IMG/VR virus record: IMGVR_UViG_3300018035_000006 | Coordinates: 1-20,000 of that record | Strand: one strand, 5' to 3' | DNA from: a virus | DNA: 20,000 nucleotides | Part shown: positions 1,197 to 18,720 of the stretch, piece by piece | Layout: every line of letters begins with the position of its first letter | Numbering within the stretch: position 1 is the stretch's first letter | The notes under the pieces: model-generated | What the model saw: the letters and a program-made list of their open reading frames with translations, nothing else | The model's database searches: none | What the model was told of the DNA's origin: nothing | Made by a program: the position numbers and the translations under genes

Positions 1197-1550
1197 CTAT
1201 GCAGTTTTAGATTCAACATCTTCTGTTTTTGATTTCTTAACTCTTGGAACACGCTTCTTTTCTTCCGTAGGTTCTTCTTCTTTTAATTTAGAACCTACTT
1301 TGGGAAGTTCAGTAATCTTTGATTTTGCCACAGGTGAAAATACTTTTACCTGATGGCTTTCAGGTAAGACTGATAGCTTATCAGATTGCTTACCAACAAG
1401 CTTGACATCTCCTACAGCTATCAGTCCCTGAATAAACCAATGATTAAATTGTTCCTCGTCTATATCGTGAACACCAATATCAAGACGAGTCTTCTTATCA
1501 TCCGAAAGGGTGATAACTCTCTTAGTTTTGATCTTGACCTTTTTACTCAT
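1197..1550 (-). CDS. Small basic protein of the head operon, unknown function
   Basis: A 117-residue protein between the major capsid gene and the DUF4054 connector. It starts after an AAGGAGAA ribosome-binding site. The first 65 residues are mixed (RVITLSDDKKTRLDIG; FNHWFIQGLIAVGDVKLV). The C-terminal half is highly charged and Lys/Glu rich (KLKEEEPTEEKKRVPRVKKSKTE in outline), which suggests a disordered tail. Proteins of this size and place in related phages are often uncharacterised head proteins. I do not recognise a family. Position suggests a virion or assembly role. Confidence 0.7.
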   Translation of the reverse strand: MSKKVKIKTKRVITLSDDKKTRLDIGVHDIDEEQFNHWFIQGLIAVGDVKLVGKQSDKLSVLPESHQVKVFSPVAKSKITELPKVGSKLKEEEPTEEKKRVPRVKKSKTEDVESKTA

Positions 1551-1583
1551 ATCATTTCTCCTTTTTAAGAAATAATTGATTTC

Positions 1584-2576: not shown

Positions 2577-2596
2577 AGTTTATATCCTCCTTTCCA

Positions 2597-3088: not shown

Positions 3089-3108
3089 AAGTTACCTCCT
3101 ATTTAATA

Positions 3109-4593: not shown

Positions 4594-4609
4594 AATAATT
4601 ATTTACCTT

Positions 4610-4732
4610 TTATAATTTAACAACATTATCTACTTTAACTATGTCTTTAGAATTTGGATTAAGATCATTCCAAAAACTTTCATATACTTGTCTAACATCA
4701 CCATTAGTTACACAGTTCCCTTCTTCAAAGAA
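4610..4732 (-). pseudogene. Out-of-frame C-terminal extension of the 394-residue gene
   Basis: After the stop of the 394-residue gene at 4708, the -1 frame is open from 4732 to a TAA at 4610-4612 and encodes 40 residues. The sequence reads like real protein (FFEEGNCVTNGDVRQVYESF, then WNDLNPNSKDIVKVDNVVKL) and ends just before the next gene's ribosome-binding region. No start codon with a ribosome-binding site is visible for it. The simplest reading is that one base was gained or lost near 4717-4732, so the upstream protein lost its original C-terminus. A sequencing or assembly error, or programmed shifting, would look similar, but no canonical slippery heptamer is present. Confidence 0.5.
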
Positions 4733-5892
4733 TCAAGTGCTTTTAAAGTTTTGGTACTTATTGAATCGTATATTTTTACTTTTATTTTTGGTATTTTTGA
4801 AAGTAATTTTTGTTTGTAAGACTCAGCTTCCTTCTTTGATTTAAATGAGTATGAAATATCTTCCTCACCTGTAATCATATTTGTGCCAGAACCATCTGAC
4901 CTTTTTCCACTCATAATACTTCTTATTTCTTTTCCTTCATCTCCTTTAAAATACACCCAAAGTGTAACATCATCTGCTGAATCACCAACTTTTGCTGACT
5001 CCCCAAATTCATATCTTTTTATTCTATCTTTGGCAATTTTAATTTTATTTTCATCTCCACTTTTCTTAGCTTCTTCTAAATGAATTTTTAATTTTTCTAA
5101 AATTGGATCATATTTATCTTTCACCTTACTACTATCTTTGCTCTTCCCAGCTTTGTTAAGTGCTATTGCAACAGCTTGAGACTGTTTCTTCCCTGCATTA
5201 CGTTCAACCGATATATTATGAGATACTGTAGATTGACTACTTCCTTCACGTAAAGGATCACCAGTGTATTTGTCTTTTATCATTTTTGAAACTTTATATC
5301 TAATATCTTTCGATTTATTATTTAAAGAAAATGTTAACTTTTCAGCTTGTTCCTTTGTTAAGTTATCTTTAATAATTTTTCCGGTTGAAAAATCTTTAAC
5401 ACAATACATTTTATCTTCATCCTTTGCAATGTATTTGTCTTTTGTTAGTAAAAGATGAGAATTTCCAACCCAAATCTTTTTACCCTTTGAAGATGTTAAT
5501 TCATAAGAAATAATATCTCCCCAAGGTCCAGAATGCTTTGTATCTTGATCAATACCTGTTACTGTGTATTTTTCTCCCTTAATCATTCCTTGGGCAGTAA
5601 CCTTTGCTGTAACTTTATCTCCTTTAGAAAAATAAGAATCCTTCGTCGGGGGATCTTGAGTGAAAGTATCACCATCTTTTGATTCTGCTTTAAGTTCATA
5701 CTTTCCAGGATTATTTTTAATAATTGTTCTTGCTTCAGTTTCAGTTAGACCTTTTTTAAAAACTTTTCCTGTATCTTTATCTAATAAGACCCAACAATTC
5801 CAATTTACATCATCCTTCGTCAACTTCTTACTTCCAAACGGTTTATGACTAATTCTCTTTCCATCACAGCTTTCAATTTGATTCACTAACAT
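4708..5892 (-). CDS. Modular phage protein of unknown function, with QAVAIAL module
   Basis: A 394-residue protein between the MuF-type gene and the protease-scaffold gene. It is built of small modules. Residues 33-61 and 162-192 are two copies of a roughly 30-residue unit (CWVLLDKDTGKVFKKGLTE and MYCVKDFSTGKIIKDNLTK). Residues 87-150 look like a small beta barrel (KGDKVTAKV, GEKYTVTGID, KKIWVGNSHLLL). Residues 216-249 carry the widespread phage module EGSSQSTVSHNI ... KKQSQAVAIALNKAG. Residues 305-376 form an alpha/beta unit beginning DVTLWVYF. Polyvalent-like head-injected proteins often have such mixed modules, so a virion-packaged accessory role is possible. The C-terminus seems truncated by a frame change (see 4610-4732). 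Confidence 0.75.
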   Translation of the reverse strand: MLVNQIESCDGKRISHKPFGSKKLTKDDVNWNCWVLLDKDTGKVFKKGLTETEARTIIKNNPGKYELKAESKDGDTFTQDPPTKDSYFSKGDKVTAKVTAQGMIKGEKYTVTGIDQDTKHSGPWGDIISYELTSSKGKKIWVGNSHLLLTKDKYIAKDEDKMYCVKDFSTGKIIKDNLTKEQAEKLTFSLNNKSKDIRYKVSKMIKDKYTGDPLREGSSQSTVSHNISVERNAGKKQSQAVAIALNKAGKSKDSSKVKDKYDPILEKLKIHLEEAKKSGDENKIKIAKDRIKRYEFGESAKVGDSADDVTLWVYFKGDEGKEIRSIMSGKRSDGSGTNMITGEEDISYSFKSKKEAESYKQKLLSKIPKIKVKIYDSISTKTLKALDSLKKGTV

Positions 5893-5919
5893 AATTTATC
5901 CTCCAATATTTTAATTCTA

Positions 5920-6816
5920 TTAAGCAGCCTTCCTATATTCTTCATTACCTGGAATACTTAGAAACTGTTCTTTATTCATTTTAACAATTTTTCCTTTGTA
6001 ATAAACTCTTGCTGGAAAATGTATATCTTCTATAAGAACAACTGGAGCAGGAAAACAACGACAATTAAATGTAGCACCAGGAAGATAATTCCCATACGAT
6101 TTTCCTTCACCAGATAATTTCTCTGGATCTGGAGGATCATTAAAAGGGCATACAACTTTATTCATAAATTTATGACTGCCCCGCAATCTTGAATCCACTG
6201 TAGAGTTCCACACATACCATTCTATCCCAATACTCTCCGCCCTTGCTTTTACTAATCCTGTAGCAGCACGTGACGTTTCCGTTCTTGCTATTGTTTTAGC
6301 TTGTGATTCTGTAACCTTACCAGTTTGAAGTAATTCAGCAATTAATGTCTCAGCACGTGCTCCAGTCTTTAAATTATTATTGACAAGATGATGAACACGT
6401 TCAGCAGCTTTCAAAGGTAGTGATGTGATCAAATCAACATTATCATCCATATATTCCTGCATCCTGTCATGAATCTCTCCCTTTGTTAGTTCACGTCGTA
6501 ATAAATTACTTATCTCCTTTGAATGACGTTCCCACATTGCTAAATCACTTTTTTCAAGAGAACCAATCATTCTTCCAACTGAAGCTTTTCCCCAATCAAC
6601 TATCCGAGCAGAATATTGTTTTAATTTTATTTCCAATCCTCTAATATCAGCGATTTTAAGTTTTGCACCAAAATTCGGTTTATTAACAAATAAGTAATTC
6701 TTGACTATTTTATCAACTTCTCTGCTAATAGCTACAAGGTCACGTCTGTATTGATTCTCAATACGTTTTGTAAGTGACCAGCTGAATATTCTACTTGGTT
6801 TCGTCTTCTGCTTCAT
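5920..6816 (-). CDS. MuF / SPP1 gp7-like minor head protein
   Basis: A 298-residue minor head (head morphogenesis) protein that usually associates with portal and is carried in the virion. The C-terminal half has the MuF signature: ARTETSRAATGLVKARAESIG, shown as ARTETSRA and KARAESIGI, then WYVWNSTVDSRLRGSHKFMN (about 203-222), PPDPEKLSGEGKSYGNYLPG, and NCRCFPAPVVL. The N-terminal part is helical. I chose the ATG at 6816, preceded by AGGG about ten bases upstream. A TTG at 6825 in the same frame would add three residues but sits too close to the AGGG. The gene overlaps the end of the small acidic gene by 26 bases. Confidence 0.88.
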   Translation of the reverse strand: MKQKTKPSRIFSWSLTKRIENQYRRDLVAISREVDKIVKNYLFVNKPNFGAKLKIADIRGLEIKLKQYSARIVDWGKASVGRMIGSLEKSDLAMWERHSKEISNLLRRELTKGEIHDRMQEYMDDNVDLITSLPLKAAERVHHLVNNNLKTGARAETLIAELLQTGKVTESQAKTIARTETSRAATGLVKARAESIGIEWYVWNSTVDSRLRGSHKFMNKVVCPFNDPPDPEKLSGEGKSYGNYLPGATFNCRCFPAPVVLIEDIHFPARVYYKGKIVKMNKEQFLSIPGNEEYRKAA

Positions 6817-6979
6817 CAGGATCAAACCCTATTTGTTTAATAATTTCCTGCGTTGAAATATCATCTACATCATCATCTTCACCGTCAGGATCTTCAATAT
6901 CCCCAGCAGCTTCTCTATCTTTTTGTATCTTTCTCCAGTCAATTTCTTGATCTTCATCTTTAACAAATTTTTTACTCAT
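6791..6979 (-). CDS. Small acidic protein between portal and MuF genes
   Basis: A 62-residue, strongly acidic protein (MSKKFVKDEDQEIDW ... EDPDGEDDDVDDIS ... FDPDEAEDETK). It has a clear GAGG ribosome-binding site seven bases before the ATG at 6979, and its 3' end overlaps the MuF-type gene start. The ribosome-binding site and compact layout argue that it is translated. I do not recognise a family. Its charge and place suggest an assembly factor or a small virion partner of portal or the MuF-type protein, which is inference. Confidence 0.65.
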   Translation of the reverse strand: MSKKFVKDEDQEIDWRKIQKDREAAGDIEDPDGEDDDVDDISTQEIIKQIGFDPDEAEDETK

Positions 6980-7010
6980 ATACTTACCTCAATACCCTCT
7001 GTAATTACCC

Positions 7011-7091
7011 CTATCTTACCCTTAAATCATGCTCGCAGGTGCCTCGTGGCAAAAGATTATTTAAAACCCTTATAAGTTTACCTTTTGTCAT
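7011..7091 (-). CDS. Possible 26-residue coupled ORF after portal
   Basis: The portal stop TGA overlaps an ATG at 7091 (AATGA). It opens a short frame, MTKGKLIRVLNN followed by LLPRGTCEHDLRVR, ending TAG at 7011. ATGA coupling is common in this window, so translation is possible. The peptide is very short, has no recognised motif, and could be a remnant of a longer gene or a chance frame. Otherwise the 108-base gap between portal and the acidic gene holds only the latter's ribosome-binding site. Confidence 0.25.
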   Translation of the reverse strand: MTKGKLIRVLNNLLPRGTCEHDLRVR

Positions 7092-10063
7092 TTTATACCT
7101 GCTTTCTTACGCCAGTCAGACCAAACACTGGGAACAATATATTTTCGTAAAGTAACTCCTGCGGTATTATTTAATCTCTCCGCAACTTGTTTTGCCACAG
7201 CTTTTACAGCTTTTTTATATTCTTTCTCTGATGTAGGAGGTTCAGTCTCAGAAACAGCTTTTACAGCTAAATCTGTAGCAACTTTCGTTCTAAAATTCTT
7301 AGGTGTAAAACTGCCTCCATCCAAACTCTTTATATACTTCAAGCATTCATTGTAATTCGTGGCAAATATTTTTTCACCCTGTTTATGTTCTTTCTTCAAC
7401 TTAAGAAGTTGTTTAACTAATGCAGGATCACTTACTTTAAATACATTATCAACACCCTTTTTGCCTGTAAATTCAAGATTAAGTGAACCATCCTTTTGTG
7501 GAATAAGATGCTGTGATTCTAATAGTGTAGCACCAAAAGCTTTCTTCTCACCAAGTTGTTTTTCAGTAGAGCCAATCCTTATTCCGGTATGAGAAACTAA
7601 TTTTGTAATAAGAGCGTTTTCATTTCCTTTTGATAAATCCTTTTCAACTTGTTTGTCTATCTTAGCATAATTCTTACTAAGATCTTTTATCATTCCATCT
7701 TTTTGTTTTGTTGTTTGTTCATCATGTTTCTTTGAATAAAACCATTGCTTCTTTCCATTTTCTGCAATAGCAGTTGCTAGTAAACTTCCCTTAGGATCTG
7801 GATTAACTTTTACATCTTTATAAGCAGGTGGCATCTTTAAAGATGAAAGATGTTTTGGCAATGGTTTACCATCTGATAGTTTCATACTTCCATCTTTATC
7901 CCTTTTTACTGCTGAAAATTCTGCATCCTTTCCTGCTTTATGCTTTTCGTATTTTCCACGCTCAGCACGTTTTACTTTTGTCTTTTCAGAATTACTTGAA
8001 GAACTACTTCCACTTCCTTTAGCTGTAAATTCACCGGCATGTTTTCCACCTTTGGCACGAGGATGTTTTTGCTCTTCAAAATCTTTTATAAGACTACCTG
8101 AAATATCAAGTTTTTCAGTGTCAATATCAATAATTTTTCCAGTATTTGCCTTAACTTGTTTTGCTCTATCATCAAGTAACATTTTCATCCACATATCTTT
8201 TTTATTGGTCACTTCAAGTTCAGGCAATCCATTCTCAGCACACCATAACTTTATTTGATGTTCAGCTTCTGGATTGTTATCAACCCTTGCTGTAAATATT
8301 TTAACAGTTTCACCATCATCTAAAAGTTCTTTTACATAATCAATCATCTTGGGAATTGGTTCACCCAACTTACCATCATTCCATCCATAATATTCGGCAA
8401 GCGTAGCATCAAAGTCAACACCTATCCATTCCTTGTTAGGAGATGAATCATGAACAAATTTCTTTGCTTCATTAATAGCTTTACCAAATAGTATTCTAGC
8501 TTCTTTTAAATTAATAACTTTCTTATCTTTCCCTTTACTCAAGGGAAGTTTTGATTCTGAATCAATACGTTTTTTCTTATCAGCTCCGGCTTGTTCTTCA
8601 ACCTCAGGAATTATTGTCTTAGGGTCTTCTTCAATTGATTCCTCATTTTGTTCACGATGTTCTTCACCACTTTCAAATTCAGATTCAGACCCTTCTTCTC
8701 CACCTAATCCCGGAGGGGGAGCATTTTGTTGTTCAATTTTTGCGGCTTCAACTTCTTCATCTGTTATATTTGTGAATATACCTGTTACACGAGAAGACTG
8801 CTGCAATTCTTTAAGACCAGTTGACTTTGTAATGATATCACCTGTTATTGCCTCACTGATAGAAGTAGTGACTGATGTATTGATTTCAGCCTTTTCTTTA
8901 TCACTCATCTTCCACAATGAATTGAAATCATACTCAAAATCAGTAGGAAGGCGTTCACCAAATAGTGAAACACCCATTATTTCCAACAGCTTTGATAAAT
9001 TAGGACGTAGTGTATTTTCCTGTTCACGATTTATACCATCGTAGTAATTTCTCAAATCTGTTTCACCCGTACTAAATCCTGCAGGTGATTGTCCGAACAA
9101 TCGAACAAGGGGGATACCAGTAGCACCGGATATCTGTTCACCAAACTGATTTAGCAGATCAGCTAATCCACCAAAGGAATTTGTCTTAATATCAAATTCA
9201 TCAGCAGCATCCAGAAGAGTAATTCCTTCATTTGTCTGCATCATTTTGATGTATTGAAACATCTTAAGAATAGCTTTTTCTTCACGACCACCCATTGCCA
9301 ACTTTTCACGTAAACCTTTTACTTTAATAGTACGTAAAAAAGATTTATAAACAAGTTGTGCAGCACCAAGAGTTGAACTATCATAAGCAATCAATCTATC
9401 ATACATACGTTCAATAACGGACAATCCCCAATAATTCTCATACACTTTTTGATAGAATGGAAGAGTAATGCCATCAAACCGTAACACACGACTATAATGT
9501 ATTTTCAATTGTGGCAATCTTATCTTTCCTATTGAAGTATGCATTCTATAAAACTTTGGCTTTCCCCAATCTTTGTTCATATCATCAACAAGTTCAGTTA
9601 AGGAAGGTTCACACATCCAACGGTCAAGTACAAGCAATCCCTTAAATGTATTATTTCCTATCCGGTCAAGGTCAAGAGGGTTTTCATATTTTTGTCCATC
9701 AATTAATATTACAGCAATACACCCACCGTATAGTCTTGCCCATTTAATTGTTTCACACAAAGACTTCCAAACATAAAAATCATCTAATGCTACATTCAGT
9801 TTATTGATGTTATCTGGTTTCATCTTTGACAACATCGTAATTCCCATCTTAGTCATATCTTCAGCAATAGCATCAACACATTGACCTATAAGCCAGCTAC
9901 TTCTGTATGAAGCTTCCAATAATGTTCTGTTCCTACTTATCAAGTTATTCAACGAATAAGTGGAAGCAGACATCTGGTTGTCAGTACCCAATCCAAGATT
10001 CGCCATAAAATTGGAAAATGAATCTTCAGTAAATGACTTATTTCTCATCGCTCGCTTTATCAT
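7088..10063 (-). CDS. Portal protein (DUF1073) fused to HAD-like and topoisomerase IB-like domains
   Basis: A 991-residue protein in one uninterrupted frame, about twice the usual portal length. Residues 1-440 match DUF1073 portals: WLIGQCVDAIAEDMTKMGI (57-75), a central GATGIPLVRLFGQSPAGFSTG (313-333, shown joined), and DLRNYYDGINREQENTLRP (336-354). A charged linker follows (455-540). Residues 545-645 look like a HAD-type fold: WIGVDFDATLAEY with Asp550/Asp552, KIFTAR (588-593), and LLDDRAKQV (629-637). Residues 662-683 carry the phage 'HPRAKGGKHAGEFTAKG' motif. Residues 735-991 form a topoisomerase IB core: GIRIG (Arg829), FTGKKG (Lys868/869), FTPKNFRTKVA (Arg925), LNNTAGVTLRKYIVP (Tyr975). 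The four main catalytic positions Arg, Lys, Arg and Tyr are kept; the site often His is Asn966. InterPro ties DUF1073 to Acb1-like anti-CBASS proteins, but no Acb1 phosphodiesterase domain is evident here. Confidence 0.85.
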   Translation of the reverse strand: MIKRAMRNKSFTEDSFSNFMANLGLGTDNQMSASTYSLNNLISRNRTLLEASYRSSWLIGQCVDAIAEDMTKMGITMLSKMKPDNINKLNVALDDFYVWKSLCETIKWARLYGGCIAVILIDGQKYENPLDLDRIGNNTFKGLLVLDRWMCEPSLTELVDDMNKDWGKPKFYRMHTSIGKIRLPQLKIHYSRVLRFDGITLPFYQKVYENYWGLSVIERMYDRLIAYDSSTLGAAQLVYKSFLRTIKVKGLREKLAMGGREEKAILKMFQYIKMMQTNEGITLLDAADEFDIKTNSFGGLADLLNQFGEQISGATGIPLVRLFGQSPAGFSTGETDLRNYYDGINREQENTLRPNLSKLLEIMGVSLFGERLPTDFEYDFNSLWKMSDKEKAEINTSVTTSISEAITGDIITKSTGLKELQQSSRVTGIFTNITDEEVEAAKIEQQNAPPPGLGGEEGSESEFESGEEHREQNEESIEEDPKTIIPEVEEQAGADKKKRIDSESKLPLSKGKDKKVINLKEARILFGKAINEAKKFVHDSSPNKEWIGVDFDATLAEYYGWNDGKLGEPIPKMIDYVKELLDDGETVKIFTARVDNNPEAEHQIKLWCAENGLPELEVTNKKDMWMKMLLDDRAKQVKANTGKIIDIDTEKLDISGSLIKDFEEQKHPRAKGGKHAGEFTAKGSGSSSSSNSEKTKVKRAERGKYEKHKAGKDAEFSAVKRDKDGSMKLSDGKPLPKHLSSLKMPPAYKDVKVNPDPKGSLLATAIAENGKKQWFYSKKHDEQTTKQKDGMIKDLSKNYAKIDKQVEKDLSKGNENALITKLVSHTGIRIGSTEKQLGEKKAFGATLLESQHLIPQKDGSLNLEFTGKKGVDNVFKVSDPALVKQLLKLKKEHKQGEKIFATNYNECLKYIKSLDGGSFTPKNFRTKVATDLAVKAVSETEPPTSEKEYKKAVKAVAKQVAERLNNTAGVTLRKYIVPSVWSDWRKKAGIK

Positions 10064-10075
10064 TGTATTTTCCTT

Positions 10076-10483
10076 TTATTCCAAAGTTTCTTTAAATAAG
10101 TGCATTGGCATTTCTATTATTGTTCCAAGAAAATCAGAACTTTGATAATGTGCTAGAAATGCATCACGTGCTGCATCTTGACTTGTGAAACCAAACATTA
10201 TTTTTTCTTCCCTATCATCTTTCCCTAATCTAATTACATACACCATTGGTGCGTATGGATCATTTCCAATAAAACAATCAACTTCCTCACCATCAACACC
10301 CACGGTTCCATTAATATACCCGTATTTATAATACATTAATGTTTTTCCTTTACCTTCTTCGCCCTTCCATTCCCTTACTGAACCTTCAGGATTTTCAATA
10401 GTAATTGAAAGACCTTGAAAATTTATTTGATTTGGTTTATTCACAACTCTTCCACCAACAATATTTGTTTCTTTTGATAGCAC
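10076..10483 (-). CDS. InPase-like phage protein (inorganic-pyrophosphatase-like domain)
   Basis: A 135-residue protein that starts with GTG at 10483, ten bases after AGAGG; no suitable ATG exists nearby. It shows the pattern INFQGLSITIENPEGSVR (20-37), YGYINGTVGVDGEEVDCFIG (54-73), KIMFGFTSQDAARDAFLAHY (94-113) and a C-terminal MPMHLFKETLE. This matches the phage InPase domain family, whose consensus is 'YGyI.gT.G.DgdevD.fiG', then 'K.mlGf.s...A...y...y' and 'm....fK'. The name comes from predicted similarity to inorganic pyrophosphatase; the true substrate is unproven. It lies just upstream of portal, consistent with a packaged accessory protein. Confidence 0.75.
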   Translation of the reverse strand: MLSKETNIVGGRVVNKPNQINFQGLSITIENPEGSVREWKGEEGKGKTLMYYKYGYINGTVGVDGEEVDCFIGNDPYAPMVYVIRLGKDDREEKIMFGFTSQDAARDAFLAHYQSSDFLGTIIEMPMHLFKETLE

Positions 10484-10485
10484 GG

Positions 10486-10752
10486 TTAATAACCTCTTTC
10501 TCTTAGAATTGAGTTAATTATTTCGTGTATAAATTCTTTATTGATAAATCTGTCAATCCAAATTTCTGTACAAGGAATAAAATTAAACATCCCTGAATGA
10601 CCATATGTATCAAATGATTTATCCACACATTTTACACAATTTTTATCAACAAAAAATATTTTGAAAACACCTCTTTTGCCATATAGACTTTTAACAAAAT
10701 GACCACCTTTTTCTTTTCCAATAATACTTTCAATCTCAACCTTATTTTTCAT
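10486..10752 (-). CDS. Small metallopeptidase-like fragment
   Basis: An 88-residue protein whose ATG at 10752 overlaps the stop of the DUF3326 gene. It resembles the N-terminal part of a domain seen in phage MuF or portal-associated proteins: 'v.gk.vR......F..ggh....fiP..EiWId......e....HE..E'. Here the matching parts are FVDKNCVKCVDKSFDTYGHSG, FIPCTEIWIDRF (about 58-69), and KEFIHEIINSILRERGY. The HE pair is at 76-77, but the second metal-binding His of an HExxH motif is absent, and the chain stops soon after. It may be a shortened, inactive or differently acting member. The family link is pattern-based and moderate. Confidence 0.55.
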   Translation of the reverse strand: MKNKVEIESIIGKEKGGHFVKSLYGKRGVFKIFFVDKNCVKCVDKSFDTYGHSGMFNFIPCTEIWIDRFINKEFIHEIINSILRERGY

Positions 10753-12104
10753 TTAATCACTGTTTTTTTAACAGGACGTGAAATAGCACCTGCATTTATT
10801 CCCTTTCTAAAAGATGTTATAAGACCAGCTGCTTCAAAATAATTATCAACAAAATATAATTTACCTTTTTTAAAGGGATATTTTGCCAGATCGTTTTCCA
10901 TCTTATTACGGTTATCTCTAACAGCAATAACAGTTATACCCTGTTCAATAGCAGCAAGAACTGGAATACCTACACACTTATCAGGAATAACAAGACATGA
11001 AATATCATTTACAGATAATACACCAGACTGTGTAATATCGTCTGTTACTATTGTAGGACTTGTATGTAATCCTTTCAGTACGCAATATAAAAATGTTTTG
11101 CTAATAACTTCACTTGCCATACGTGGATCAACAACTCCCATACTTTCATCCAAATCATCTATTGTCTGCATGATGGGGGCATGGGCAGATGGAAGATTCA
11201 ACAAACTACTTATTGAATGTGTAATCATAGCTTCAACACCACCCCAAGGATTAATAATTTTTCCACCTGACTTAAAATACTTTTCAATCAGTTCTTCTGG
11301 AACATCAACCCGTGAAATAACAGCAACAGCATCATAATCTTTCATTTGCTGTAAACGATAAACTACTCTTCCAATACCTTCAACTTTTCCAATAGCAGAA
11401 CCGGAAGATGAATATGAAGCAACAGCGTGAGTGGGTGGATCTATCATAACAATTTCAATATCAGCACCCAATGTAGTTCTTGCTGCAGACGCAGCATTAA
11501 TAACAAATTCATTTACTTCATTTTCTTTATGCTTATCAACAACCATCACTATCTTATTACTTCTAACACGTCTTAAACCTACTGTCCCCATGAACAGTCT
11601 ACTAATAATGCTGCCTTCAACATATAAACTATTTGATGGTATTTCATTAATATCAGAAGCATTAACAACATTCGGATGAAGTATTAATGTATCACACACA
11701 CCGGAAAGTAAACGAGCAACTGGGGTAGCATCTCCTGCATGTCCACCAATCTCTGCACCTATGCCAGTAGGGATCAACATCACTACATTATATTTATCAA
11801 CATTTTCAAATTCTCTTTGCTTGTATTCAAATACGTAATCATTTGTTTGATCCTCAACACCACTATCATTCAATATTCCTAATTCGCAATGATAGCCTTC
11901 ACTATCTGTTTTTGTAACAACAAAACGAACAAGTGTTTGGTTTGGTGAAAGTATATTTGCTACGCAATTTTTAAAGTATTGCAACAAATTTCTCCCTTTG
12001 TTTAGTGGAATAATAATTTCTTTTTCAAAAAGAACTGAATCTTCTGCATCAGTAACCAATTTAAATCTTCCACCAATTATACGATGACTACCTAACAACA
12101 TCAT
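10749..12104 (-). CDS. DUF3326 family protein
   Basis: A 451-residue protein with full-length similarity to DUF3326, a family of unknown function known from cyanobacteria, plants and other bacteria. Marked family blocks are TLVRFVVTKTDSEGYHCELG (57-76), PTGIGAEIGGHAGDATPVAR (112-131), TLILHPNVVNASDINEIP, SLYVEGSIISRL (159-170), NPWGGVEAMITHSISS (285-300), VVDPRMASEVISKTFLYCVLKGL (shown as VVDPRMASEV and FLYCVLKGL), SCLVIPDKCVGIPVLAAIEQG and NYFEAAGLITS. The fold is probably soluble alpha/beta with a conserved glycine-rich pocket; no reaction is established. Its ATG overlaps the upstream gene's TGA and its stop overlaps the next ATG, so it is made as part of a coupled set. It looks intact. Confidence 0.88.
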   Translation of the reverse strand: MMLLGSHRIIGGRFKLVTDAEDSVLFEKEIIIPLNKGRNLLQYFKNCVANILSPNQTLVRFVVTKTDSEGYHCELGILNDSGVEDQTNDYVFEYKQREFENVDKYNVVMLIPTGIGAEIGGHAGDATPVARLLSGVCDTLILHPNVVNASDINEIPSNSLYVEGSIISRLFMGTVGLRRVRSNKIVMVVDKHKENEVNEFVINAASAARTTLGADIEIVMIDPPTHAVASYSSSGSAIGKVEGIGRVVYRLQQMKDYDAVAVISRVDVPEELIEKYFKSGGKIINPWGGVEAMITHSISSLLNLPSAHAPIMQTIDDLDESMGVVDPRMASEVISKTFLYCVLKGLHTSPTIVTDDITQSGVLSVNDISCLVIPDKCVGIPVLAAIEQGITVIAVRDNRNKMENDLAKYPFKKGKLYFVDNYFEAAGLITSFRKGINAGAISRPVKKTVIK

Positions 12105-12823
12105 TTACTCCTTGCCCAAATTTTAATAATAGGATCAAGACCAGCTTCAATATGATCAAGTTTCTTAACAAGTATTTCATAATCAAACTTTTTATTTAAT
12201 GGCAGTACAAAGTCAACTTGTGATCCGTAACGCACCTGACCAAAACGAGAACATTGCCTCATTCTTTTTTGATCATCGTATGTAATAATTGTATTGATAT
12301 CTTTATCAGCTACCTGTACAATATAAAAACGCTGACCTAACATATTTGAATGAAAGACACTTGTCTTCTTTTGATTTTGGAATAAATAAGACATTTGATC
12401 TTTCTTATACCCAAAGTCATAAAACAAATTTTCTTCAAGTAAAGTCATTGACATATTATGTGTCTGTATTACTTCACAAAATTTTGATTCAACAAAAATA
12501 GCATCACAAGGAACTCTATTTGTGTGTACATCATAAGATGTCATAAATATTCCCACTACAATAGCACGTTCATTAAAATCATCAATTCCTAATAAATCCT
12601 TTACTGTAAAATCTTTTCCTTTTATCTCAAGGAAATTATTTGGATTAAATTCCTTAGCATAAAGAATTGTACCATCTGCCGGTGAATACATCAGATCATT
12701 ATTAAAATACGTAGGTCTGATAGGATCACGAAAAAACAATTCAGTATACATTTTACCCTTACTCTCTTTCTTAAGAGAAAGTACAGCAGGTGAGTTCATC
12801 CATTCACGTATATGCATCTTCAT
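12101..12823 (-). CDS. Phosphatidylserine-decarboxylase-family (pyruvoyl-type) protein
   Basis: A 240-residue protein with the landmarks of the PSD family: FFRDPIRPTYF (30-40), YSPADGTILYAKEF (46-59; Asp50 equals the conserved aspartate), GIFMTSYDVHTNRVPCDAIF (91-110; His100), and RFGQVRYGSQVDFVLP (193-208). Gly200-Ser201 is the place where family members cleave themselves and turn Ser into the pyruvoyl cofactor. All three self-processing residues (Asp, His, Ser) are therefore present, which suggests an active decarboxylase. There is no N-terminal membrane segment, unlike the E. coli enzyme, so the substrate could be phosphatidylserine or a soluble amino-acid-like compound. It overlaps both neighbours by ATGA. 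A start at the second Met (residue 3) is possible. Confidence 0.83.
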   Translation of the reverse strand: MKMHIREWMNSPAVLSLKKESKGKMYTELFFRDPIRPTYFNNDLMYSPADGTILYAKEFNPNNFLEIKGKDFTVKDLLGIDDFNERAIVVGIFMTSYDVHTNRVPCDAIFVESKFCEVIQTHNMSMTLLEENLFYDFGYKKDQMSYLFQNQKKTSVFHSNMLGQRFYIVQVADKDINTIITYDDQKRMRQCSRFGQVRYGSQVDFVLPLNKKFDYEILVKKLDHIEAGLDPIIKIWARSK

Positions 12824-13743
12824 TTTGAAAACCCTACATTCAACGGAGTTATAAAATCACAACATCCAGTTATTCCATATTTTTGACTTTCATTCATTTG
12901 CAAAAATATAATATCATAATTCAACTTACGACATATTTCAATAAGTAAATTATTCTTTTTCAATTCACGATTATAAGTAGCATCACTTGCTGTCATTGAC
13001 TGCAATGGAGAAACATTTATCAAAGTAGTTCTTACTCGTATACTGTTACATATTCCACAATTACACATATCAGCTTGTACTTGAATAACATTTGCTACTT
13101 TCTTTACTTCAGCACTGGGTAAAGAACTGTTCATCATCACGTTTTCCATATCAAGAACAAACAAATTATTACTTAATGAATCATTCTTTAATTCAATACG
13201 AATTATTCGCAATCCATAAGTTTTTTCAAGCCAATCATATATTCTACTATCAACAAATTGATTAACACCACCAAAGTAAATATTTCCTTTAAGATGTTTT
13301 AAATTATTATATCCATTAAACCTGAACGGGGCGTTAATCACTTTATATCCATTTTCAATTAGGGTATCACTTGCAACAATCTCTTCTCCAAGATACTTAT
13401 TCCAATTACCAAAGTTACTAAGAATAACAACATTGTCTAAATGAGGTAAATAAACAAATGCTTTCATATACGTCTGAAATGTAAGTCCCTCTTTTGGTGG
13501 TATTAATAAAATCAGTGATTCAAACGAAAGTAGATGGTAAAGATTAATCCAATCACCAATAAACTTTTCATAATTAATTTCTTTTCCTTTACCAGTCAAA
13601 GAATTTTTTGCATCAACATAAGTAGGTGCACACATAGCAAAGACAGGATAAGAAAATTGTGAAATTGTTCTGATATCTGCTTCCTCAGAATCGTAATTTA
13701 AAACTCTTCCATTACTTACTCTTTTTAGATCTCGTAAAAGCAT
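12820..13743 (-). CDS. Amidinotransferase/DDAH-fold protein, probably catalytically dead
   Basis: A 307-residue protein whose layout follows the guanidino-group-modifying superfamily (amidinotransferase, arginine deiminase, DDAH). The blocks are YPVFAMCAPTYVDAKNSL (32-49; family 'v.mc.P..f.v.y..n'), FVYLPHLDNVVILSNFG (96-112; 'pglpd.vFtan.g'), NGYKVINAPFRFNGYNNL (131-148; 'Gy.v.......FeG.gD.l'), NIYFGGVNQFVDSRIYDWLEK (154-174, in parts), LFVLD (194-198; 'fyHLD'), and GCCDFITPLN near the end ('gs..CLTl.l'). The catalytic His is Val196 here and the catalytic Cys aligns with Phe297, so the usual chemistry is unlikely. A Cys227-x-Cys229-x2-Cys232 cluster is an addition that could bind metal. It begins one base after the previous stop and ends in ATGA overlap with the PSD-like gene. 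Confidence 0.65.
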   Translation of the reverse strand: MLLRDLKRVSNGRVLNYDSEEADIRTISQFSYPVFAMCAPTYVDAKNSLTGKGKEINYEKFIGDWINLYHLLSFESLILLIPPKEGLTFQTYMKAFVYLPHLDNVVILSNFGNWNKYLGEEIVASDTLIENGYKVINAPFRFNGYNNLKHLKGNIYFGGVNQFVDSRIYDWLEKTYGLRIIRIELKNDSLSNNLFVLDMENVMMNSSLPSAEVKKVANVIQVQADMCNCGICNSIRVRTTLINVSPLQSMTASDATYNRELKKNNLLIEICRKLNYDIIFLQMNESQKYGITGCCDFITPLNVGFSK

Positions 13744-14256
13744 TTAACTAAAATCTCCTTGTCTTCTACTTTGAGCATTATCATCTTCTGTAATAACAAC
13801 TTTTCCAATAGTGACACCATGACATTTTGGATCTGGGCAATCAACAAGATGACTATGTGAATTTATTCTTTTCCACATACCATCATGTTCATTAAAATTT
13901 CCTCTGCAATATTGTGTAAGCTTTTTATCTTGTTCTACAAATTTTGCAATAACTGTATTATGCCAATCTGTTTCAATCTGATTTCTTGCTTCATCTCTTT
14001 CCTTTAAAGTTTTTGCAATTATATCTGCTGCCTCAACTCTTTTACCTTCTTTTTCTTTTTCTTTTTCATCAATCACTTTTTTATACTTTTCAACAATGAT
14101 TGGTGAAAAAATATAATACAATAAAAAACAAACAATAAATGTAACAAGATTCTCCCATGAAAAATTTAGTAATGCTGGTGTTCCTGTACTGGAACTTGTA
14201 GTTAATTGTGTTGTTTTTACTGATTGTTCTGCAAAAGCTATTAAAGTCATCATCAT
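13744..14256 (-). CDS. Membrane-anchored coiled-coil protein with Cys/His C-terminus
   Basis: A 170-residue protein with a short periplasm-like N-terminus, one membrane segment (about 36-55, NLVTFIVCFLLYYIFSPIIV), and a long Lys/Glu-rich helix (57-112) likely to form a coiled coil. The C-terminus has Cys117, His134, His136, Cys140, Cys145 and His146, spaced in a way that could bind zinc. Three ATGs occur in a row; the first, at 14256, suits the AAGGAA ribosome-binding site best. The gene lies among putative lysis genes, so an inner-membrane spanin or holin-partner role is possible, but no spanin family is recognised. Confidence 0.65.
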   Translation of the reverse strand: MMMTLIAFAEQSVKTTQLTTSSSTGTPALLNFSWENLVTFIVCFLLYYIFSPIIVEKYKKVIDEKEKEKEGKRVEAADIIAKTLKERDEARNQIETDWHNTVIAKFVEQDKKLTQYCRGNFNEHDGMWKRINSHSHLVDCPDPKCHGVTIGKVVITEDDNAQSRRQGDFS

Positions 14257-14280
14257 TTATTTCCTTATGAACATTATTTT

Positions 14281-14312
14281 TGAGTACCTCAGATATTTCA
14301 CTGAGGTACTCA
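14281..14312. repeat. Perfect 12-bp inverted repeat between membrane-protein genes
   Basis: TGAGTACCTCAG at 14281-14292 pairs perfectly with CTGAGGTACTCA at 14301-14312, with an 8-base loop. It fills the 64-base gap after the TAA of the two-TM gene and before the ribosome-binding site of the coiled-coil gene. Neither strand has the T run expected just after an intrinsic terminator stem. It may be an RNA-stability or processing hairpin, or a protein-binding operator. Confidence 0.7.
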
Positions 14313-14320
14313 CCCAAAAA

Positions 14321-14632
14321 TTAAATAGTTTTTTCTCCATCACCAACATTACTCTTAAGAGTAGGTTTATTCACTGGTGTGAACCATGCCTGTACTTGAT
14401 CAACCAAACTATTTGAAACAATAGCAGGATTGAATACTGCTATTAATTTTAAAATACTGACTACCAAAATGGGAACAGCAGTAATGATTGTTGAGTAATT
14501 AGTCATCACCCAACTACACCAATCATTGTCAAACATTTCACTACAGAAAAACTGCATAGTTGATGCGAAGACAATTAATGGGTAAACAACCATTAATATG
14601 ATAGATAGAATAATTAACCAAAACTTTTTCAT
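14321..14632 (-). CDS. Two-TM small membrane protein, holin candidate
   Basis: A 103-residue protein with an N-terminal hydrophobic segment (about 4-23, WLIILSIILMVVYPLIVF) and a second one (about 48-67, IITAVPILVVSILKLIAVF). The first could be a signal peptide (ending near VFAS) or a membrane anchor. Two cysteines, Cys30 and Cys39, fall between the segments, and the C-terminus is polar. Size and topology fit class II holins, and nearby genes include possible cell-wall hydrolases. No family was recognised, so the holin call is inference. A strong AAGGAGG sits five bases before the ATG and overlaps the preceding gene's 3' end. Confidence 0.6.
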   Translation of the reverse strand: MKKFWLIILSIILMVVYPLIVFASTMQFFCSEMFDNDWCSWVMTNYSTIITAVPILVVSILKLIAVFNPAIVSNSLVDQVQAWFTPVNKPTLKSNVGDGEKTI

Positions 14633-15418
14633 TTACGCCTCCTTTTTTAAATAAACCATCTGTGCTTCTAAATCTTTTACAGACATTCCCAAAAGTGATA
14701 ATCCTTTTTCATCCATCCAATCAATATCACACAAAGGATATGCCTCATCAAGATAATGAGATTGAAATGCTGGAGTTAATAGATATAACTGCCCCCATGA
14801 ACTTATTATTAAACTCCCATCTTTTTGATACCCTACTGCAATTATGCAATGACCACCTTCTATCTGTTGGTTAGGAACGTAATCCCAAACACTGGGAGAA
14901 GGGGCATTGTCAGGAACAATATTTGTGGGGACATCAATTCCTAAATAAACAACACCACATTCATAGATTCCACGTTTCAAATCCGTAATAATTCTAGGAT
15001 CTGTTTCTACAAATGCCCTTAACTTATGTCGTGTCTGTTGTTGATTACCAGTGGGGGCACCAGTATTTAACAAGTAGGATAATACATCTTGCTCATTTCC
15101 ACCTTGATCAGTATTTGGATCTGATGGATTATAACCACATGCTTGTTGATACAAAGACAATACATCGTTATCCACTTCTGTAATCATACCATCTTTTTTA
15201 TTAGTATGAAAACTCCAAAGCTGAAGGGCATGATAATATCCTGCATAAGTACAATCACCTAATGTATCATTAAGCATTATTCCTAAATCAGGTATCATCC
15301 CATCTGCATAATTTAATTCATCAGGAAGTGTAATTGAAGTAGCAAGACTTCTTAATGAACTCATATGCGGAACTGCTGGATTAAACTTTCTTGGCTGTCG
15401 ACCTAATTTGTAAATCAT
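14633..15418 (-). CDS. Papain-like (C1-type) cysteine peptidase homologue
   Basis: A 261-residue protein with the C1-papain layout. Cys56 is in NDTLGDCTYAGYYHAL, His190 in IEGGHCIIAVGY, and ISSWGQ at 205-210 matches the 'NSWG' block, with Ser in place of the usual Asn. It lacks a signal peptide and the long propeptide of secreted papains. It could act as a peptidase in the host cell or virion; a bacteriophage role is not established for this type. The substitution of Asn may lower activity but is tolerated in some members. It has an AGGTGA ribosome-binding site and leads into the holin candidate. Confidence 0.7.
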   Translation of the reverse strand: MIYKLGRQPRKFNPAVPHMSSLRSLATSITLPDELNYADGMIPDLGIMLNDTLGDCTYAGYYHALQLWSFHTNKKDGMITEVDNDVLSLYQQACGYNPSDPNTDQGGNEQDVLSYLLNTGAPTGNQQQTRHKLRAFVETDPRIITDLKRGIYECGVVYLGIDVPTNIVPDNAPSPSVWDYVPNQQIEGGHCIIAVGYQKDGSLIISSWGQLYLLTPAFQSHYLDEAYPLCDIDWMDEKGLSLLGMSVKDLEAQMVYLKKEA

Positions 15419-15428
15419 AATTCACCTA

Positions 15429-15929
15429 CTATTTTAAATTTTGCAAAGCAATTATAATCTGCTGCGGTGTAAGTTTTACATTACTCAATTTCTTAAGCTT
15501 AAGTGAAGTTTTACTTGCCATACCAGAAGACAATCCCTTAATAAAACCATTCAACACAGCTTCTGCATCACTTGCCCCCAATGACGTATCAGATAATATT
15601 GTATTGATATCACCAGCTATTGTAGCAAAGTTACTGTTAGGATTTGCATTGTTTGCTGCTGTAATTGCGGTTAGTAAAGCTTGCAAACTGACATCAACTG
15701 TTTGAACAGTTACAACTGCTGTATTTGTAGTAGCTTGTGCTGATGTCGCATTATTAACTATCTGCGTAGCTAATGAAGGATACACCACAGCAATCAAACC
15801 ACCTAAATCTGTAGCAATTGTAATCAGTGTCTGCGGATTACTTAATATACTTGATATTGCACTACAACCACTTACTGTTAAAAAACAAACGACCATTGCT
15901 ACTGCTAAAACACTCTTTAACTTTTTCAT
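15429..15929 (-). CDS. Predicted lipoprotein, unknown function
   Basis: A 166-residue protein with a lipoprotein signal: basic MKKLK, a hydrophobic core, and a VSGC lipobox with Cys22 as the expected lipid-bearing residue. I chose the ATG at 15929, seven bases after GGAG. The ATG at 15935 is almost on top of that site, so the two-residue-longer form is less likely. The mature part is Ala/Asn/Thr rich (residues about 28-130) with helical pattern, then a Lys-rich C-terminus ending QQIIIALQNLK. Phage lipoproteins may take part in lysis (outer-membrane spanin) or superinfection exclusion; nothing here decides. Confidence 0.7.
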   Translation of the reverse strand: MKKLKSVLAVAMVVCFLTVSGCSAISSILSNPQTLITIATDLGGLIAVVYPSLATQIVNNATSAQATTNTAVVTVQTVDVSLQALLTAITAANNANPNSNFATIAGDINTILSDTSLGASDAEAVLNGFIKGLSSGMASKTSLKLKKLSNVKLTPQQIIIALQNLK

Positions 15930-15966
15930 AATCATTCTCCCTTTGTTTAAGTTGGTTACTAAATTG

Positions 15967-16371
15967 TTAATTACTTAACATCACCTTATGTTTTTCCAAA
16001 CTTTCTAATGCATCTTTATTCATTCCTAAACTATATGATTCACAAAAATTTTGTTCTGTTCCACTGAACATTCTTACTAATTCTATATATGTTCCTTTAT
16101 GAAATAAATCATCAAATTCCAAATAGTAAAAACCATGCTTCAATAACAACATATCTTTATCTTCACATGGGCATAATTTAATAAGTTTTACATTATAAAT
16201 TAATCCTATTGCATCAGCTATATCCCCCATAATTAATTTACCTTCAGCTTTATACACTTTATCTGATTGTGCCCCTAAACCAGAAAATAAAATAAATGTA
16301 ACTTTTTGAGCATGTGATTCACAACAACTCATAAGGAATAACACAAATATTATAAATAATAAATTTTTCAT
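15967..16371 (-). CDS. Small predicted lipoprotein, unknown function
   Basis: A 134-residue protein with a signal segment MKNLLFIIFVLFLMSCC; Cys16 is the likely lipidation site (LMSC box). The mature part contains a CPC pair and a helical C-terminal half (LGMNKDALESLEKHKVM). No family is recognised. The ATG at 16371 overlaps the TGA of the papain-fold hydrolase gene and has AGGTG six bases upstream, so the two are translated together. With the next lipoprotein it may form part of an envelope-acting group. Confidence 0.65.
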   Translation of the reverse strand: MKNLLFIIFVLFLMSCCESHAQKVTFILFSGLGAQSDKVYKAEGKLIMGDIADAIGLIYNVKLIKLCPCEDKDMLLLKHGFYYLEFDDLFHKGTYIELVRMFSGTEQNFCESYSLGMNKDALESLEKHKVMLSN

Positions 16372-16886
16372 ATTTCACCTTCAAAAATAATATTAATATA
16401 CTTTGAAATATTCCACTCATCAACTAACTCTTGTGGTGTTAATCCCCACCAATTCTTTTTAGCTAATCCCATTGTATACCCTGCATTGATTAAAAACTTT
16501 TCAGCTAATTCAGAACAAACCGTGTCTGAACCCAAATGAATCCATCTTGCCAACCCTATTAAATGTAATAGTAATCTCCAATAGGGATAAATTTTACCAT
16601 TTTCACCTTTTACAGCATCCCAACCTTTACGAAAGTTTTCAACATTCATTCCTTCCCAACGAGCAATAATAACTCTACTTCCTTTGTAAGCTGTAAATAA
16701 ATTTTGTTGCTCAATATTCCATACAGCTTCAAAAGTATTTCCTTGAGAATCCAAAATAATACCAGCATGAGAATACTCTGCTGTTTTACTTTCGCATCTT
16801 ATTGCTTCAACAAAAGTAATCAACTTACCTAGTGATTGAGGATTTCTTGTTGCAAACACATCTCCCGGTTGTAATAATATATTCAT
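16368..16886 (-). CDS. YiiX-like permuted papain-fold (NlpC/P60 clan) hydrolase
   Basis: A 172-residue protein with the pattern of permuted NlpC/P60-like amidases. It opens LLQPGDVFATRNPQSLGKLI (4-23), then YSHAGIILDSQGNTFEA (38-54; His40 and Glu53) and SDTVCSELAEKFLINAG (120-136; Cys124). In such permuted enzymes His comes before Cys, as seen here. The ATG at 16886 is preceded by GAGG at six bases; a GTG at 16898 would add four residues and lacks its own site. It could cleave peptide or lipid-linked substrates; in a phage setting, cell-wall lysis is one option. It is coupled to the lipoprotein gene downstream. Confidence 0.75.
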   Translation of the reverse strand: MNILLQPGDVFATRNPQSLGKLITFVEAIRCESKTAEYSHAGIILDSQGNTFEAVWNIEQQNLFTAYKGSRVIIARWEGMNVENFRKGWDAVKGENGKIYPYWRLLLHLIGLARWIHLGSDTVCSELAEKFLINAGYTMGLAKKNWWGLTPQELVDEWNISKYINIIFEGEI

Positions 16887-16894
16887 AAAGCACC

Positions 16895-17347
16895 TCACAC
16901 ATAATTATCAACAACAATAAGTTGAAACTTGTCAATGCCTTCAAGAACAGTCATAAATTTCTTAAAGGTATTGCCTGAATTAAGAACAGCACGTTCGCCT
17001 TTTACTTTATCACGGGTACTTCCCATTATAGTACAACCTAATGTGTCTTCAACAATATTCCCAGCATGGAACTCAAGGAAGCTATGACCATCAACATAAT
17101 AAGGAGTTGTAGGTCGTTGTATTACAAATGTCCAACCATGCTTTGGTGAATTATACCTTACACATTCATAATAAGGATTAGCTTCATCATTTGCAGGAAG
17201 ATGAAATCGTGAAGGAGTTTGTGTTTCATCCAATACGTCAGGTTGTAATACTTCACAAAAATAATTTGTGTCAAAATACAGTTTACCAAAATCCCCCTGT
17301 AAATTATCTTTCTCATCCCTAATTATCTTACATATTTCAAAATACAT
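16895..17347 (-). CDS. DUF5675 family protein
   Basis: A 150-residue protein with the DUF5675 pattern: an N-terminal 'G.L..d....c..L' region, PSRFHLPANDEANPYYECVR in place of the 'LPaG.Y......' block, LEFHAGNIVEDTLGCTIMG (about 91-109; 'iHpGN...dt.GCi..G'), and RAVLNSGNTFKKFM. Family members are frequent near phage lysis genes, and a function in wall processing has been suggested, but the activity is unknown. An AGGAGA ribosome-binding site lies seven bases before the ATG. It is the first gene after the G+C-rich fibre region. Confidence 0.82.
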   Translation of the reverse strand: MYFEICKIIRDEKDNLQGDFGKLYFDTNYFCEVLQPDVLDETQTPSRFHLPANDEANPYYECVRYNSPKHGWTFVIQRPTTPYYVDGHSFLEFHAGNIVEDTLGCTIMGSTRDKVKGERAVLNSGNTFKKFMTVLEGIDKFQLIVVDNYV

Positions 17348-17361
17348 AATTTATCTCCTAC

Positions 17362-17565
17362 TTAATTTCTTAAACTACCTGTTGAAAATATACCATCCCC
17401 AAACATTCCACCTGTAAACGATGTTACAATTACACTTGCCGTAAAATTAGCACCTGTAATATTGCTTGATGTTACCGTTTCGTTTAAAGATGTCGGGCTA
17501 AAAGTATAATTTGTCTTGCTCGGCGTTACCGTATAACTGCCTGCCGATAATCCTGAAAAACTGTT
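17362..17565 (-). pseudogene. C-terminal remnant of a fibre or secreted repeat protein
   Basis: Between the secreted-protein gene and the DUF5675 gene, one frame is open for 67 codons after a TAA at 17566-17568 and ends at TAA 17362-17364. It encodes NSFSGLSAGSYTVTPSKTNY, TFSPTSLNETVTSSNITGAN, FTASV and a tail GGMFGDGIFSTGSLRN. The first part is a near-textbook copy of the 'FSGL..GsYTVTPsk.gYtFsP.s..vtv...n.tg.nFta' repeat of large secreted bacterial proteins. There is no start codon with a ribosome-binding site and the frame differs from the gene upstream. It is best read as a broken piece of a former gene or a lost C-terminal domain. Confidence 0.65.
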
Positions 17566-17587
17566 TTACAAGGTTTTGTTACCCCCA

Positions 17588-18715
17588 TTAATACGCTGTC
17601 GAGTGTGCGGAAGAACCGCCTCCGCCAGTACTAAATGTCGTATTTGCGGGTTGATTAAAAGATGCGCCTTGATAAAATTGGACTTTATTCGATGACGAAC
17701 TAGTCCATGCTGGGGACGGTCCAAAATAAGCTGAAGCACCACTTCCTTGCACAAGAAGAGTCCCCGTACCTAATGTGACTTGGTTACTTGGAGCATAATA
17801 ATATACTCCAACAGCCCCAAAAGCAGTCCCACCGGTTATAATTCCTGTAACGGATAATGTCCCACCAGCCATTAAGATGCCACCGCTATAATTTCCCGAA
17901 CCCCCAGTTACATTTCCTACTACAGTTACACTATTACCATTGGAGCTTATTCCAAAAGTCGCATATCCATCTCGCGGTTGTGATCCAACAGTAGATCCAC
18001 CTGAGACATTTCCTATAACAGATATTGTGCCATTAGTAGTAAAAATCGCATCTACACCCCCTGCACCTGAACCCCCAATCACATTCCCAGTAACATTGAG
18101 AGTTCCCCCGCCCATGATAAATACCATTGCTGTCCCGTAAGCAGCAAGACCGGTATTTATATTTCCAGTGATATTAATTGTACCTGCTCCAGTAGCAGTA
18201 AAACATTCATATCCTCTATTCGAGCCTCCGGTTAAATCTCCGTTTATATTAATGGTACCAGTGCTAGAATCTTCAAACATATATTGACCAGAAGTTAATA
18301 TGATACCTTGAGAATTGGAGTTTAGCCCTGTATTAATTGTCAGCACATTGCTCGTCGTCCCTGTAATCAAATAGGTACCTAAGCTATTTGTACCATCGTT
18401 AAATGTAGTAACATTAAGCGAACATCCAGAGTTGCAAAATGCAGAACTCAAGTTTAAAGCAAATTGACCACCAGCAGATGATTCCATCAAAGCTAATGAG
18501 CCAGAAGTATCTGGAATCCTCGCATGTGAATCCCATGTAACGGTATAAGATACTAAATCGACAGTATCTCCGGCCTGAGGAATTGTAGAGTTACATCCAG
18601 ACCATACAGTTGAATCTGACCAGTTGCCGGTTTTTGTAGCGGTGCAAGTATAAGCCCAAAGCTGTGATGGTATGAAGAAAAATAAAATGATTATTAATAA
18701 GAGTATTTTTTTCAT
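17588..18715 (-). CDS. Secreted beta-repeat protein next to the tail fibre
   Basis: A 375-residue protein with a typical signal peptide (MKKILLLIIILFFFIPSQLWA; likely cut after Ala21). The mature start has W-rich blocks, TGNWSDSTVWSGC and IPQAGDTVDL, reminiscent of G8-type or envelope-protein domains. The rest is Gly/Asn/Thr rich and repeats a 'G-T-(I/L)-N/S-V-T-G-N-(I/V)-x-G-G' unit about every 25 residues, which suggests a right-handed beta helix. I chose the ATG at 18715, with GAGG about eight bases upstream inside the end of the fibre gene; a start at 18754 would add 13 residues before the signal peptide. A cleavable signal is unusual for a virion fibre, so it may be exported by the host. 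No family is certain. Confidence 0.7.
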   Translation of the reverse strand: MKKILLLIIILFFFIPSQLWAYTCTATKTGNWSDSTVWSGCNSTIPQAGDTVDLVSYTVTWDSHARIPDTSGSLALMESSAGGQFALNLSSAFCNSGCSLNVTTFNDGTNSLGTYLITGTTSNVLTINTGLNSNSQGIILTSGQYMFEDSSTGTININGDLTGGSNRGYECFTATGAGTINITGNINTGLAAYGTAMVFIMGGGTLNVTGNVIGGSGAGGVDAIFTTNGTISVIGNVSGGSTVGSQPRDGYATFGISSNGNSVTVVGNVTGGSGNYSGGILMAGGTLSVTGIITGGTAFGAVGVYYYAPSNQVTLGTGTLLVQGSGASAYFGPSPAWTSSSSNKVQFYQGASFNQPANTTFSTGGGGSSAHSTAY

Positions 18716-18720
18716 GATTA

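Follow-up and report, generated by a model that had tools for sequence, protein, structure and literature searches.

Two recurrent decarboxylase modules, with a possible role in small-amine synthesis, are fused in a three-gene cassette of a phage structural region

A metabolic cassette of three genes in a phage structural region is the fusion of two recurrent gene modules, and not a fixed trio. It lies in the window, the 20,000 nucleotides that form positions 1 to 20,000 of IMG/VR virus record IMGVR_UViG_3300018035_000006, a 20 kb fragment, almost all of whose genes lie on the minus strand. In transcription order, the cassette encodes a GME-fold, arginine-dihydrolase-like protein (GME; 12820-13743, 307 aa, assigned by fold match), a pyruvoyl-dependent decarboxylase with the fold of phosphatidylserine decarboxylase (PSD; 12101-12823, 240 aa, PF02666 E 2.9e-26) and a DUF3326 protein (10749-12104, 451 aa, PF11805 E 4.3e-87). 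All three open reading frames (ORFs) are intact on the minus strand, as an earlier reading of the sequence (the original prediction) had stated, and the ORF coordinates give 4-nt stop/start overlaps between GME and PSD (12820-12823) and between PSD and DUF3326 (12101-12104). On balance, we consider it probable that the cassette is a phage-borne module for small amines, most likely polyamines, in which the PSD-like protein would act on ornithine or arginine and DUF3326 would provide a second step.

The first module links DUF3326 to a decarboxylase. Viral DUF3326 loci (n=59) came from an alignment scan aimed at the HPNVVNA motif, and some of their contigs may include host sequence. A scan of genome contigs revealed bacterial relatives across numerous phyla. 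The 80 best loci were kept, a sample that favours proteins related to the window DUF3326. Decarboxylase partners were sought by six-frame profile searches of these loci. A decarboxylase was found within 1.5 kb of DUF3326 in 52 of the 59 viral loci (46 SpeD-like, 6 PSD-like) and in 75 of the 80 bacterial ones (32 SpeD-like, 43 NspC-like). Of the five bacterial loci without such a hit, two have no upstream sequence, and two of the viral loci without one carry a SpeD about 2 kb away. The rest of the same loci yielded two further hits in 598 kb of viral sequence, namely these distant SpeDs, and none in 555 kb of bacterial sequence. Pfam and NCBIfam confirmed the partner families (PF02675, PF02666 and PF02784/TIGR01047), the NspC-like proteins matching TIGR01047 at 2e-80, below its cut-off. 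In the reverse view, DUF3326 is located within 4 kb in 38 of 56 viral loci of the same SpeD type. For a second PSD type (PSD2), DUF3326 is not nearby in 3 of 11 loci (L180, L181 and L185). The DUF3326 family itself extends from cyanobacteria and plants to phyla of metagenome-assembled genomes.

These partners belong to three unrelated folds; the SpeD-like and PSD-like enzymes are pyruvoyl-dependent and the NspC-like enzymes use pyridoxal phosphate. The simplest inference is that the three types of decarboxylase do comparable jobs. Ornithine or arginine is the proven substrate of phage and bacterial SpeD homologues (PMC9992855, PMC10407285), and Gln, Thr, Phe and Tyr residues are diagnostic for the SpeD-type ornithine decarboxylases (PMC10407285). 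The DUF3326-linked SpeDs keep the self-processing Ser, His and Cys, and carry a conserved Gln, as well as a Thr just before the pyruvoyl Ser, as candidates for two of these residues. One gene further upstream of the DUF3326-decarboxylase pair, some alphaproteobacteria carry a gene of the glutathionylspermidine-synthase family (PF03738), which is a pointer to polyamines. Several alphaproteobacterial pairs (e.g. L137:3565-4725 and L128:3659-4210) also adjoin GSP_synth-family, DUF1190, PspA-like and DUF350-like genes; a set of this type has been discussed as a polyamine-linked envelope-stress operon (PMC11237479).

The second module pairs GME with PSD. When the window proteins were used as single queries against viral contigs no relatives were found, but alignment-based scans revealed them. 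The PSD alignment identified 26 viral loci and, outside Fletchervirus, GME is located directly upstream of PSD in nearly all of them; the exceptions are short contigs, a few cases with ORFs in between and a single divergent arrangement. The GME alignment identified 231 viral relatives, from which 79 new loci were kept. PSD follows GME in 76 of these, adjacent in 75, and the remaining three contigs end there. Bacteroides phages SJC03 and DAC19 have GME directly upstream of PSD, while the Campylobacter Fletcherviruses encode relatives of both proteins far apart. Many GME-PSD loci belong to one T4-like group, with the pair between gp23 and PhoH, and some contigs are near-duplicates. Thus, the counts do not represent independent events, and independent support comes from the window, the Bacteroides phages and the L030, L031 and L035 lineages. 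The GME and PSD trees agree in their main groupings. The best NCBIfam match of the GME family is arginine dihydrolase (NF052232) for 16 of 16 sequences (best 1.4e-26), and the family matches AgrE/ArgZ at 1.3e-30. In one locus (L023:5185-5859), a GIY-YIG homing-endonuclease-like ORF separates an otherwise adjacent GME and PSD. In phage SJC03 (L004:10829-12311), dCTP-deaminase/dUTPase-like and IMPDH/GMP-reductase-family genes lie downstream of the pair; such a nucleotide-metabolism context recurs in about four related loci, unlike the capsid context seen elsewhere.

The original prediction took the three genes for one unit. Its parts do recur, GME-PSD in T4-like contigs and Bacteroides phages and DUF3326-decarboxylase in viruses and many bacterial phyla, but the full trio was met nowhere else. 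DUF3326 was found in 0 of 17 GME-PSD records, and a window-type PSD or GME in 0 of 49 DUF3326 records, the latter being weaker negatives since nothing registered in that search. SpeD was found in 0 of 18 GME-PSD records, three of which were deposited as complete genomes. The window itself carries PSD instead of SpeD, with no PF02675 SpeD within 1.5 kb of DUF3326. In the DUF3326 tree, the window protein clusters with SpeD-linked bacterial DUF3326 proteins (SH-aLRT 96). Consequently, PSD apparently took the place of SpeD. The six viral DUF3326 loci that carry the other PSD type group in a separate clade in another part of the tree, suggesting that a PSD-type partner was acquired twice. The simplest inference is that DUF3326 and an active GME are alternative companions of the decarboxylase; in the window, the sole record with both, the GME is probably dead. 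The original prediction is thus supported in part: the genes are metabolic and belong to the folds that it named, and as portions of the set are found again in other genomes we consider their coupling functional. Literature searches for DUF3326 and for the gene pairings found, in the papers searched, no report of GME-PSD or DUF3326-decarboxylase coupling.

The window GME has no Pfam match and only a weak NCBIfam arginine dihydrolase match by sequence (E 0.0022; 17.3 bits, short of the cut-off of 450). Its predicted structure (pLDDT 79) matches ArgZ in Foldseek (E 1.9e-13) and in VIA-align (6jv0; Z 26.4, root-mean-square deviation 2.6, 254 residues), followed by DDAH (Z 22.6). Judged by this model, the ArgZ-type pentein/GME fold is certain, in line with the fold originally proposed. 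The ArgZ active-site residues considered were N22, D65, N71, Arg, FEGxxD, H168, D170 and C264, and 11 motif positions were named by their ArgZ equivalents, 10 of them invariant in all 15 relatives and one nearly so. Compared with these relatives, the window GME has lost 10 of the 11, namely the family NNxW, QD, AN, PR, EGEAD, GIRS and YHLD residues, and keeps the Cys alone (C295, equivalent to ArgZ C264). Thus, family motifs, originally reported for all three proteins, are kept in PSD and DUF3326 but most are missing from the DDAH-like gene. Its terminal branch is also about four times as long as that of its sister, the L010 GME (1.68 versus 0.43), whereas the PSDs from the same two phages have similar branches (0.62 for the window, 0.64 for L010). 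In the window, GME is on average 8 points less identical to its relatives than PSD is to its own, whereas in the other pairs it is 2 points more so. Since the window PSD branch matches that of its sister and other pairs are unaffected, the decay is specific to GME and to the window lineage. The motif loss and the fast evolution therefore suggest that the window GME is probably catalytically dead, either a relic or a non-catalytic partner.

In contrast to the GME, the decarboxylase keeps its expected residues. The window PSD scores 92.8 bits against PF02666 (gathering score 22) and is below every NCBIfam PSD equivalog cut-off (best NF003685, 80.2 bits versus 183). D50 of SPADG, H100 of YDVH and G200-S201 are intact, and all are invariant in 15 phage PSDs. 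We take D50 and H100 to be the catalytic residues, and G200-S201 to be those of self-cleavage. A hydrophobic membrane-contact segment was not found, as the maximum KD19 is 0.99 in the window protein and 0.84-1.44 in its relatives, compared with 2.25 in a bacterial PSD used as the single control. No lipid gene was seen next to PSD. The best reading is a soluble pyruvoyl-dependent amino-acid decarboxylase, and gene linkage together with the homologues of the partner genes points to L-ornithine as the most likely substrate, with L-arginine next.

The DUF3326 protein scores 292.7 bits against PF11805 (gathering score 25), keeps the family-invariant PTG, GG, GD and HPNVVNA columns, and has an N-terminal extension (about residues 1-105). 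Its predicted structure is a good model (pLDDT 86.9). The best fold matches are a Foldseek hit with E 0.011 and VIA-align hits up to Z 6.2 (galactolipid synthase and lumazine synthases), and as these lie in the range of common alpha/beta arrangements we draw no reaction from them. The structure found no match in a viral structure library, and the protein has no sequence relative in the PDB and no dehydrogenase match. A tblastn search of phage and plasmid collections was negative, though IMG/VR holds at least 59 loci.

Our model suggests that the PSD-like protein would cut itself at Gly200-Ser201 to generate a pyruvoyl group, and would then decarboxylate L-ornithine to putrescine or, as the next candidate, L-arginine to agmatine. 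In phage GME-PSD pairs of the usual kind, the arginine-dihydrolase-like GME would make ornithine from arginine for the decarboxylase; given the activities of the SpeD homologues and the residue and segment pattern of the phage PSDs, the most economical route for such a pair would run from arginine through ornithine to putrescine. In the window, where the GME lacks its active site, DUF3326 may have been taken from a bacterial SpeD-DUF3326 operon and would supply a second enzymatic step, either making the substrate or using the amine. From the position beside the capsid and portal genes, and from general knowledge, we conjecture that the amine would be produced late in infection, perhaps to balance the charge of packaged DNA or for translation. 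More tentatively, we hypothesize that the widespread phage PSD-like proteins may be a further fold that decarboxylates ornithine or arginine, paired with an arginine-dihydrolase-like enzyme, and that DUF3326 may be a new polyamine enzyme that stands beside whichever decarboxylase fold is present.

Several points weigh against this model. NspC-type enzymes normally decarboxylate carboxyspermidine or carboxynorspermidine, so if the three types of decarboxylase share a substrate, it may be something other than ornithine or arginine. SpeD, NspC and PSD could also be linked to DUF3326 for separate reasons, and the window GME could retain some Cys-dependent function. The proposed substrate draws on gene neighbours and their homologues, and the predicted DUF3326 model has no confident fold match. 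Finally, DUF3326 in cyanobacteria has been reported beside fed3 and DUF650, without a decarboxylase, in a study that gives it no reaction (PMC4284462).

Among the alternatives, we regard as unlikely that DUF3326 forms a carboxylated polyamine adduct from which NspC, SpeD or PSD removes the carboxyl group, as CASDH and CASDC do for carboxyspermidine. Among the bacterial partners, NspC, which represents the carboxynorspermidine decarboxylases, is the most frequent (43/80, with the TIGR01047 match below its cut-off), as this scheme would have it, but DUF3326 lacks a dehydrogenase match, and the proven SpeD homologues use ornithine or arginine and not carboxyspermidine (PMC10407285). It is slightly less likely still that the enzyme is a true phosphatidylserine (or archaetidylserine) decarboxylase, converting host membrane lipids to phosphatidylethanolamine and so aiding assembly or lysis. 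The original prediction had raised such a change of lipid head groups, and the PF02666 match, the retention of the residues expected to be catalytic and an ocean survey of auxiliary metabolic genes that treats viral pssA and psd as phosphatidylethanolamine synthesis (PMC11360552) are consistent with it. Nevertheless, the protein falls far under all NCBIfam PSD cut-offs (80 versus 183 bits for the best), the hydrophobic segment is absent (by one control only), the neighbourhood holds no lipid gene, the GME partner is of the amino-acid type, and SpeD or NspC fill the same slot in DUF3326 contexts. The other product named in that prediction, a small amine-containing metabolite, fits, and nothing supports its suggested block of a host defence.

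Synthesis of an unusual amine for modifying phage DNA or nucleotides, instead of free polyamines, seems just as improbable as the lipid route. The SJC03 pair does lie among DNA ligase, DnaB-like helicase, dUTPase/dCTP-deaminase-like and IMPDH-family genes, and the Campylobacter Fletcherviruses, whose DNA is modified (PMC6884629), have both GME and PSD. However, the modified base in the Campylobacter case is a 7-deazaguanine, which has a known and unrelated biosynthetic route. In the T4-like contigs and the window, the neighbours of the pair are capsid or portal genes, and bacteria have DUF3326-decarboxylase without any phage context. A role for GME in 7-deazaguanine synthesis was itself considered and dropped, as the amidinotransferase of that literature is an unrelated tRNA enzyme (PMC6884629). 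We consider it highly improbable that the genes are chance or decaying cargo that this phage carries along with no shared function: the trio was met once only and its GME is degenerate, but the PSD and DUF3326 frames are intact with the expected active-site and family residues, the genes are coupled by overlaps, and both sub-modules recur independently.

Downstream of the cassette, an 88-aa ORF (10486-10752, minus strand) overlaps DUF3326 by 4 nt (10749-10752); Pfam, NCBIfam and PHROGs profile searches detected no relatives of it. It is followed in the same direction by InPase (10076-10483; PF18823, E 8e-31) and a portal gene (7088-10063), which belongs to the structural setting and not to the cassette. 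The original prediction, which omitted the 88-aa ORF, was right about both overlaps within the cassette but not about a direct run into InPase and portal. The structural setting that it described is confirmed by the portal (PF06381, 1.5e-103), a Mu-F-like head protein and a major head protein. Similar head and portal genes are present in 40 kb phages, among them Acinetobacter Ab105-1phi and Burkholderia Magia. In Magia, the portal comes immediately after the terminase, so the position of the cassette within the structural operon is a variable one. A megablast of the window against phage records gave no match, and L010, the nearest GME-PSD relative, has no further gene in common with the window. 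The portal protein carries PF06381 at residues 49-402 and a C-terminal topoisomerase IB catalytic domain at 782-970 (PF01028, 6.2e-18), the two being separated by what looks like a HAD-like DxDxT stretch (GVDFDATLAEYYG); portal relatives align to about the first 450 residues only. Two other minus-strand genes (14633-15418 and 16368-16898) have cysteine-protease-like motifs (GDCTYAG...GGHCIIAVGY and HAGIILD...CSELAEKFL, respectively), for which PHROGs returned only a family of unknown function and a weak unrelated label.

With these results, DUF3326, a domain of unknown function, gains a concrete and testable partner and pathway. They also suggest that phage genes annotated as phosphatidylserine decarboxylase and amidinotransferase may form one arginine-to-amine pathway, and not lipid or creatine synthesis. 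The ocean survey placed viral psd in phosphatidylethanolamine synthesis and discussed viral creatine-pathway genes (PMC11360552); if phage PSDs are amino-acid decarboxylases, psd assignments such as these need review.

Several known systems resemble parts of the cassette. Trypanosome RESC5 we take to be a non-catalytic GME-fold protein. It is among the structure matches of the window GME (PDB 8dpk, 8fn4), but belongs to a eukaryotic RNA-editing complex and has no decarboxylase link. ArgZ/AgrE of the cyanobacterial ornithine-ammonia cycle (PDB 6jv0, 6lrf) share the fold of the window GME, and the relatives in other phages keep the motif residues that the window copy has nearly all lost; the phage proteins differ in standing alone, without the C-terminal cyclodeaminase half. 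Phosphatidylserine decarboxylase (PF02666; PDB 7cnw, 6l06) is like the window PSD in family and expected catalytic residues, and unlike it in the NCBIfam cut-offs, the hydrophobic segment and the amino-acid-metabolism partners. The SpeD-derived ornithine and arginine decarboxylases (PMC9992855, PMC10407285) are likewise phage-encoded, pyruvoyl-dependent and set in a polyamine context, but have the SpeD and not the PSD fold, and the window enzyme is paired with GME and DUF3326; a search of these two papers found no mention of DUF3326 or PSD. The arginase and ornithine decarboxylase pairs of giant viruses follow the logic proposed here, with two steps encoded by the virus that lead from arginine via ornithine to putrescine, and no arginase homologue was detected in phages (PMC9992855). 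GME-PSD differs from them in the folds of both steps, and would fill a gap in phages, which have ornithine decarboxylases but no reported arginase-like feeding step.

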